Shown here piece after piece: positions 23,756 to 26,919 of a stretch of 64,000 nucleotides of DNA (within the stretch, counting starts at the first letter, position 1; every line of letters starts with the position of its first letter). The DNA lies in NCBI GenBank assembly GCA_027309085.1, contig DAIDDL010000010.1, forward strand, positions 1-64,000. Reading direction: 5' to 3'. The position numbers were made by a program, and so were the translations under genes. This stretch comes from Sulfobacillus sp. (GTDB taxonomy: Bacteria; Bacillota; Sulfobacillia; Sulfobacillales; Sulfobacillaceae). The notes below the pieces were generated by a model, which was given only the letters and a program-made list of their open reading frames with translations, was not told where the DNA came from and did no database searches.

Positions 23756-25018
23756 TCATCCTTCCCGGAAAATCCGGGCCCCTAACCTGCTCAGTTTGTA
23801 TTCCAGGGCGTGGTATCCTCTGTCAATGTATTCCAGCCCATCCACCACTGTGGTGCCGAGCGCTCCCAGCCCAGCCAAAACCAAGGCCGCGCCCCCTCTG
23901 ATATCTTGAGCTTGCACGGGGGCTCCCGTCAACTGGTCGACCCCCCGCACAATGGCGGTTTCCCGCTCCAGTTTGATATCCGCGCCCAGGCGCACCAAGT
24001 CGTTGGTATAGCCAAAACGGTTTTCGAAAACCGTTTCCTGCACCACCGCAATGCCGTCGGCCAAGCTGAGCAGGCTGACCATTTGCGGATGCAGGTCTGT
24101 GGGAAATCCGGGATACGGCAGTGTTTCGATGTCCACCGACTTGAGGCGGCCATCCACCGAAACCCGGATCCAGTCCGAGTCTTCCTCAATCTGGCAGCCA
24201 GCCTGTTCCAGTTTCAGAAGCACTGTGCGCAGGTGTTCAGGGATGACATTGGTGACGGTCACCACACCCCCTGCCACCCCGGCTGCCAGCAGGTACGTCC
24301 CGGCTTCCAACCGGTCCGGGATAATTTCGTGGCGGGTGCCGTGCAGACTCTCTACCCCCTCAATCCGGATGAGGCTGGTGCCGGCGCCGCGCACCACCGC
24401 TCCCATGGCGTTGAGGAAATTGGCCAGGTCCACGGTTTCCGGCTCCATCGCGGCATTTTCCAGGGTTGTGGTGCCACGGGCGAGACTTGCGGCAATCATA
24501 AGGTTGATCGTCGTGCCAAAAGATGCCCGTTCAATATAAATGCGGGTTCCCTGCAATCTCCCCTCGCCCACTTCCCCGTGGATCGAGCCGTGTTCCAGCC
24601 ACATCCGGGCCCCCAGCGCCTCAAATCCGCGCACATGGAAATTCACCGGGCGGGAACCAATTTGACAGCCCCCGGGGAAAGCCACATCCGCCTGCCCCAG
24701 GCGGCTCAACAGCAGTCCCACCACATACGTGGAGCCGCGCAGTTTCTTGGCCAGCTCATAGGGGGCCCGGAATCCCGAAAGAGTTGATGCATCAATTTCG
24801 AGCTGAGCTTCCCCCGTCCAGTCAACCCGCGCCCCCAGCTCGCGCAAAATCTGGCATAAATCCATAATATCCGTATACCGGGGAACATTGTCTAAAATAG
24901 TGGAGCCCCTTGCCGCCAGCGCCGCTGCCGCAATGATAGGCAGCGCACTGTTTTTGGAACCCTCCACACCCACTTCGCCTGCCAGCGCCTGCTGGCCTTC
25001 AATCACAAGCCGTGCCAC
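23756..25018 (-). CDS. murA: UDP-N-acetylglucosamine 1-carboxyvinyltransferase
   Basis: First committed step of peptidoglycan synthesis: transfers enolpyruvate from PEP. I favour the GTG at 25018 (AAAGGCGG seven bases upstream), giving 420 residues; an ATG at 25036 is possible. VEGSKNSALPIIAAAAL carries the active-site Lys. The fosfomycin-target Cys is present in FPGGCQIGSRPVNFH. It is the first gene of a murA-thiolase-dehydrogenase run, directly after the IS605-like remnant. Confidence 0.97.
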   Translation of the reverse strand: MARLVIEGQQALAGEVGVEGSKNSALPIIAAAALAARGSTILDNVPRYTDIMDLCQILRELGARVDWTGEAQLEIDASTLSGFRAPYELAKKLRGSTYVVGLLLSRLGQADVAFPGGCQIGSRPVNFHVRGFEALGARMWLEHGSIHGEVGEGRLQGTRIYIERASFGTTINLMIAASLARGTTTLENAAMEPETVDLANFLNAMGAVVRGAGTSLIRIEGVESLHGTRHEIIPDRLEAGTYLLAAGVAGGVVTVTNVIPEHLRTVLLKLEQAGCQIEEDSDWIRVSVDGRLKSVDIETLPYPGFPTDLHPQMVSLLSLADGIAVVQETVFENRFGYTNDLVRLGADIKLERETAIVRGVDQLTGAPVQAQDIRGGAALVLAGLGALGTTVVDGLEYIDRGYHALEYKLSRLGARIFREG

Positions 25019-25036
25019 ATTAAATCCGCCTTTCAT

Positions 25037-25392
25037 TCATTTGCGCGGGAAACCCCGGTCTTGAGGCCGGGAGGGATAGCGCCTCTCCGCTCCTCGTTAT
25101 GTTTATCCACGAATATCCATACCCGTGGCTTTTGTCTCAGGACCCCGCTTGCGGCGGGCCGGCTGCTAGGCAGACCATCAGCCGGTCGGTGAAGGGCGCC
25201 AACCAATGCGCCGGCGCCCGTTCTTGCGAGCGCGGCATCAGCGGTCCTTGCGTTGGTTGGCCGGGGACAAATACCGCCGGGTGATCCCTTCCTATTCTCT
25301 TACGGGTCTTGCAACGCCGCCTGGCGAGCTGCGGTCTCTCCTTTTGGTGGCAGGGGAGACACCAGCCGTCCAAGCTTAGGCCCTGAGCCCCC
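25037..25392 (-). mobile_element. structured remnant resembling an IS200/IS605 (TnpB) right end
   Basis: No gene is supported in this 356-base gap between guaB and murA. Read on the minus strand it is highly structured: CCAACCAACGC pairs with GCGCATTGGTTGG (plus about 25201-25260), CCCGC/GCGGG near 25145, CCACG/CGTGG near 25115. It ends in CCCGGCCTCAAGACCGGGG followed by TTTCCCGC (plus about 25042-25070). A CCTCCCGG(..)CCGGGGTTTC hairpin is typical of the 3' ends of IS200/IS605-type elements, where tnpB ends and the guide RNA scaffold lies. No intact tnpA or tnpB is present. The assignment rests on recall of that end motif. Confidence 0.45.

Positions 25393-26919
<1,527 letters not shown>

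Follow-up and report, generated by a model that had tools for sequence, protein, structure and literature searches.

The genes guaB and murA lie co-directionally on the minus strand of the window, the 64,000-nucleotide stretch of a Sulfobacillus sp. genome (G000) analysed here, and are separated by a gap of 356 nt (25037–25392; Table 1). The original prediction described this gap as packed with stems and ending in a hairpin followed by TTTC, and read it as the right end of an IS200/IS605-like element without a transposase. The hairpin CCCGGCCTCAAGACCGGGG is present on the minus strand and is directly followed by TTTC at 25052–25049, the two together occupying 25071–25049. The abundance of stems, by comparison, lies within chance. 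On the minus strand the gap folds with z = –1.65 and 6 of 100 shuffles fold equally well, which gives no clear margin over chance, and on the plus strand the corresponding values are z = –0.90 and 18 of 100; folding was therefore dropped as evidence for an element. A covariance-model search, which the prediction had proposed, gave no Rfam match at gathering anywhere in the window, and no match to HEARO within 24950–25450 even at E ≤ 1. The sole Rfam match in that interval at E ≤ 1 was to isrK (E = 0.017, 21.5 bits, gathering score 50), which was rejected as chance because iscB homology accounts for most of 25138–25233.

Table 1. Features of the guaB–murA gap and its flanks in the window.
Feature	Position	Strand	Evidence
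guaB	25393–26859	minus	
Stretch from the guaB stop to where element sequence becomes recognisable	25323–25392	minus	expected place of the guide-RNA scaffold
Guide-RNA 3' tail remnant (GCAAGACCCGTAAG) and iscB 5' part	25124–25322	minus	profile 240–477, E = 4.2e-18; blastn
iscB 3' end remnant and start of the right end (GGTATGGATATTCGTGG..., degenerate GAGGAG)	25083–25126	minus	profile from 1571 onward; alignment to L036
Right end of the IscB-type element, finishing directly 5' of ATGA	25037–25082	minus	11 other genome copies at 81–90%; family alignment; profile to 1695/1695, E = 4.9e-19
Terminal hairpin CCCGGCCTCAAGACCGGGG	25053–25071	minus	the sequence itself; same hairpin across the family
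ATGA target motif directly 3' of the element	25033–25036	minus	ATGA after 59/63 right-end copies; empty sites of relatives read ...ATGAAAGGCGG
murA Shine-Dalgarno (AAAGGCGG) and GTG start (25018–25016)	25016–25033	minus	same AAAGGCGG...GTG/TTG order in same-genus relatives
murA	23756–25036	minus	

The nature of the gap is revealed by homology. The segment 25030–25082 (minus strand) is similar to 11 other places of the same genome at 81–90% identity, a count obtained from 14 match rows by removing the window itself (one row) and second pieces of elements already counted (two rows). The reading as an IS200/IS605-superfamily right end is thus borne out, by homology and not by folding. A search for full elements with the same end, also proposed in the prediction, does find them, so that the lack of any related element, named there as a refuting outcome, does not apply. 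At L036 and L038, open frames of 472 and 471 aa match NCBIfam NF040563 (RNA-guided endonuclease IscB) with 443 and 460 bits (cut-off 175) as well as Pfam PF14239 (RRXRR) and HNH, and the L036 protein is similar to solved IscB chains in the PDB. Of the 11 related loci that were scanned, 5 contain HEARO (RF02033) with a score above gathering. Together, these protein and RNA matches identify the related elements as IscB-type. IscB is related to Cas9 rather than to TnpB. The prediction was therefore right that the nuclease gene is gone from the gap, but the gene carried by the related elements is iscB and not tnpB. Furthermore, HEARO lies at the end opposite the hairpin, so that the guide RNA of the full relatives occupies the left, guaB-side end, away from CCCGGCCTCAAGACCGGGG, and not the hairpin end at which a scaffold had been expected.

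The window copy retains little of such an element. A nucleotide profile of length 1695, built from 17 elements of the IscB family, matches the window (nhmmer) in two pieces only, 240–477 and 1571–1695, the latter at 25126–25033. By sequence homology, the family right end is present. The remnant between 25322 and 25124 aligns by blastn at 74% to L036 and at 77–88% to L038; its iscB 5' part has lost the start codon near 25281–25279, carries indels and then meets a large internal deletion. The window copy holds no iscB gene with a split RuvC (RRXRR) and an HNH domain, and because only iscB fragments are kept it is a remnant rather than a functional IscB element. Within 25323–25392 the guide-RNA scaffold (profile 1–239) is not recognisable, there being no profile match below 240 and no HEARO, and the left edge of the copy was not found there either.

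These observations establish that the right end and the iscB 5' fragment have homologues in full elements of the same genome, that the copy lacks the guide RNA (HEARO) part and the bulk of iscB, and that the site is empty in relatives (see below). We assign a probability of about 0.93 to the reading of the feature as an IscB-type (OMEGA, IS200/IS605-superfamily) element, decayed and internally deleted, that inserted directly 5' of ATGA between guaB and murA; among the three options originally offered, the decayed element was the correct one. The Shine-Dalgarno AAAGGCGG and the GTG of murA both lie 3' of the insertion and are undisturbed. The ATGA at 25036–25033 stands 18 nt upstream of the GTG common to the murA genes of relatives and is likely not the start codon of murA. 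Since AAAGGCGG follows the insertion, translation of murA need not depend on the decayed element. The window element should now be inert, since it has neither a nuclease nor a guide scaffold and murA keeps its own Shine-Dalgarno and start downstream. The finding in the window is thus real but of a known kind, an ordinary decayed IscB fossil.

The genome is rich in RNA-guided nuclease elements, with 19 matches to the TnpB C-terminal family, 13 to IscB and 5 to Y1 transposases. A tnpB-type IS605 right end with the guide-RNA scaffold at its 3' end could draw on the TnpB and Y1 matches and on the GC-rich end hairpins common to the superfamily, but it is most improbable: comparison of the window element with 24 tnpB and tnpA loci taken from the genome gave nothing significant (best E = 0.083), and the element strongly matches iscB elements, iscB coding sequence included. 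The five TnpA loci, searched for the family ends, gave weak hairpin-like matches only (best E = 0.005); the window element may have been mobilised by a TnpA acting in trans at ATGA. IscB proteins about 60–72% identical to those of G000 occur in Acidithiobacillus, Methylacidiphilum and Tepidimonas (L074–L088), a similarity of sequence that suggests transfer between phyla.

The insertion site itself is empty in six same-genus genomes (G002–G007), in which the aligned guaB and murA ends are 22–28 nt apart, as compared with 360 in the window. The gap therefore does not reflect conserved regulation of guaB or murA; such conservation had been named in advance as speaking against a mobile element. 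A structure-conserved host leader of murA or terminator of guaB would suit the short intergenic gap, the co-directional genes and the foldable sequence, but the sequence is missing from all six relatives, folds no better than several of its shuffles and belongs to no Rfam family at gathering, and we consider such a host element extremely improbable. In another species of the genus, G001, a ~245-nt element (L048) lies directly 5' of ATGAAAGGCGG before murA, inserted at the very base that the window element occupies. Its similarity is to the guide-RNA portion of the profile (8–242, E = 3.4e-61) and it shows no iscB, so that it is HEARO-like and guide-RNA-only, although Rfam at gathering was silent on it. 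In a tree of guaB and murA, G000 pairs with G004 and G001 with G006 (support 1.0 and 0.86), both partners having the empty site. Since each occupied genome pairs with an empty one, two independent insertions are the simplest account. A single old insertion common to G000 and G001 was suggested by the complementary parts that are kept (8–242 of the profile in G001, 240–477 and 1571–1695 in the window); in view of these pairings we consider it less likely, as it would need several precise losses or repeated precise excision.

The guide-RNA-only element in G001 also speaks for a further reading, in which the window copy has been kept as a non-autonomous element and intact IscB proteins encoded in the genome use its guide RNA in trans. 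Intact IscB frames are indeed present in G000, and standalone guide RNAs working with IscB are mentioned in PMC9581776, but the scaffold part (profile 1–239) is not recognisable in the window copy. This renders use in trans highly unlikely and equally disfavours the retained or domesticated guide-RNA transcript that had been considered originally.

Beyond the window fossil, the right ends of the family share a marked habit. ATGA directly follows all 11 other right ends in G000, and at 10 of them it begins an ORF of 100 aa or more; at the remaining one (L043), an ORF of 594 aa begins at an ATG four bases on. A right-end query found matches in 23 of 34 family genomes, from which 44 places were taken, each with a match reaching query position 105 or more (earlier-ending matches were left out). 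A search of other genomes gave 18 loci, 11 of which entered the right-end analysis. The right-end copies kept number 63, with 13 from this genome, 41 from relatives and 9 from other organisms. ATGA stands at the end of 59 of the 63, a figure biased because the query itself contained ATGA; the opening of ORFs is unaffected by this bias. After removal of a duplicate (L201), 58 ATGA copies remained, and at 42 of these the ATGA opens an ORF of at least 100 aa, as compared with 344 of the 1,773 ATGA of the same loci (19.4%; p = 3.4e-18). A comparison with the window, where by a crude gene call at most 20 of the 64 ATGA that are start-near or intergenic lie near starts, gave p = 1.5e-10.

The reading frames opened in this way include known genes. 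Pfam was run on 30 of the 42 host proteins. In 24 of these, a family match starts among the first 30 residues and at profile position ≤ 5, four proteins are without such an early profile start and two are without a family. Ribulose-phosphate epimerase, ETF-beta, GcvH, glycyl-tRNA synthetase beta, IspG (GcpE) and orotidine decarboxylase are among the invaded genes. A GalE-like epimerase gene carries a related IscB element at its start codon both in Tepidimonas charontis and in an Alcaligenaceae bacterium (L077, L078). In other IscB subfamilies, GTGA takes the place of ATGA after the right end (L226–L228, L115, L102) and opens a long ORF in L227, L115 and L102.

Orthologues of the invaded genes locate the insertion with respect to the translation signals. 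For ETF-beta, an uninterrupted ATGA start closely preceded by a purine-rich Shine-Dalgarno is found in 7 of 7 same-genus relatives; in G000 the Shine-Dalgarno AAAGGGAGAGAATGCC lies to the left of the element and the start codon to its right. For ribulose-phosphate epimerase, 6 of 6 relatives likewise show a Shine-Dalgarno followed by an uninterrupted ATGA start. In G000 this gene is single-copy (L040, G000:C66:43604-44375); its native Shine-Dalgarno is not seen, and that of the iscB-less right end remains. The gene thus seems to have lost its native Shine-Dalgarno, and it seems to offer a natural test case. Relatives of a YqeK-type gene (L042) have no ATGA start, so that a pre-existing target is not demonstrated by this locus. 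Some insertions of the family are thus seen to lie between a gene's own Shine-Dalgarno and its start codon.

The right end carries a Shine-Dalgarno core of its own. Between –110 and –35, 41 of 42 start-codon copies carry the core, as do 11 of the 16 remaining copies (Fisher p = 0.0047, relatedness uncorrected); at –600 to –525, taken as a control, it occurs in 10 of 54. The core is centred on no single position but lies at about –82, or near –64 in copies missing one hairpin. Downstream of the core, a stem GCGGGAA/TTCCCGC encloses the hairpins, and when this closing stem is formed the core comes to about ten bases from the start codon. Across 45 right ends, 83.9% of cells pair, as compared with 29–50% in slid versions, and the covariation score of the right end is 0.119 as compared with 0.089 in shuffles, none of 500 reaching 0.119. 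The covariation spans the whole family right end, hairpin CCCGGCCTCAAGACCGGGG included. Three points weigh against a role of this arrangement in translation. The transposase also needs right-end structure; single-sequence minimum-energy folding leaves the closing stem unformed in several copies, L040, L043, L181 and L219 among them; and CTATCC and other unpaired right-end bases are as conserved as AAAGGAG. Among 60 other iscB loci, 32 have a closing stem and RTGA, some by chance, and a Shine-Dalgarno core stands beside the stem in 14 of the 32.

The same AAGGAG also falls within the reading frame of iscB. Counted from the final TGA, it occupies all three frames (29, 10 and 7 of 46 copies), which argues against a purely coding reason for its presence, and it is retained in copies without iscB beside them, such as L040 and L219. 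In L036 and L038, the iscB frame terminates in the TGA of the target's ATGA, so that termination-reinitiation would be a second route to the host gene. Coupling through a mini-ORF was rejected as the sole mechanism because many start-codon copies (such as L182, L188, L192 and L195) are without a Shine-Dalgarno-led open frame near the end.

From the arrangement of these motifs, we propose that the right end may serve as a built-in replacement ribosome-binding site for the invaded gene. This is the likeliest way for the family to coexist with its hosts. Insertion at an ATGA start codon, a placement that the copies demonstrate, separates the gene from its Shine-Dalgarno; the right end would provide a substitute AAAGGAG, carried near the start codon by the right-end stem; and in intact copies, where iscB ends in the TGA of ATGA, ribosomes may reinitiate on the host gene. 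We hold this translation step, that is, the supply of a substitute Shine-Dalgarno and reinitiation, at slightly under even odds. The wider proposal, for which our confidence likewise falls just short of an even chance, is that ATGA-targeting IscB elements are start-codon parasites with built-in repair. They would insert between the Shine-Dalgarno and ATGA; their right end, which doubles as the hairpin end used by the transposase and as iscB C-terminal coding sequence, would present a Shine-Dalgarno at about –82 that the stem places some ten nucleotides from the AUG; and the iscB stop, being the target's TGA, would couple translation to the host gene.

The placement of the family may instead be a by-product, if the transposase prefers ATGA, insertions within genes are purged and start codons are what remains, with AAAGGAG being iscB coding sequence that has no role in host translation. 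This is a serious alternative, to which we give clearly less than an even chance. A TGA-type target motif is known for the group (NTGA for IsrB, in PMC9581776), 29 of 46 copies have AAGGAG in the same main iscB frame, and the core is also found in 11 of 16 copies away from an ORF start. On the other hand, the excess of copies at starts over the window's ATGA and the retention of AAGGAG in three frames and in the iscB-less L040 and L219 speak against a mere by-product.

HEARO elements are already known to be located 5' of ATGA or GTGA, and the window insertion directly 5' of ATGA fits this motif. The window copy shares with IscB/HEARO elements (OMEGA; RF02033, NF040563) the homologous right end, the iscB fragments and this insertion site; it differs in that full copies in the genome contain HEARO and iscB, whereas it is without the guide RNA and nearly all of iscB. 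TnpB elements also belong to the IS200/IS605 superfamily and have hairpin ends and an RNA-guided nuclease, as does the window family, but their nuclease gene is a different one, their guide RNA lies at the right end, and the tnpB loci of this genome show no significant similarity to the window element. A hairpin in phage T4 gene 25 joins the Shine-Dalgarno and the start codon and shortens their effective spacing. A stem likewise lies between the Shine-Dalgarno and the AUG in the IscB right end and may act in an analogous manner; in this case, the stem is a transposon end and its role is predicted. Termination-reinitiation at ATGA overlaps is described for natural coupled gene pairs in PMC6728339. 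The TGA of iscB similarly overlaps the ATG of the host gene, but, compared with the pairs described there, this overlap is made by the insertion of a mobile element. The IsrB target motif NTGA, standalone guide RNAs and HEARO (RF02033) are covered in PMC9581776 and PMC9755519. Our literature search found no description of IscB elements at start codons or of a right-end Shine-Dalgarno.

In summary, the original observation is partly confirmed and its interpretation partly supported. The part worth following, beyond the window fossil, is the start-codon habit of the IscB family together with its right-end Shine-Dalgarno. The family lands on the start codons of core genes and probably keeps these genes expressed. 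If true, this would account in concrete terms for the targeting of ATGA by relatives of Cas9's ancestor, and the start-codon-parasite reading would help to explain the wider RTGA motif among them. It would also provide a simple rule by which guide-RNA elements may remain harmless in gene-dense genomes.
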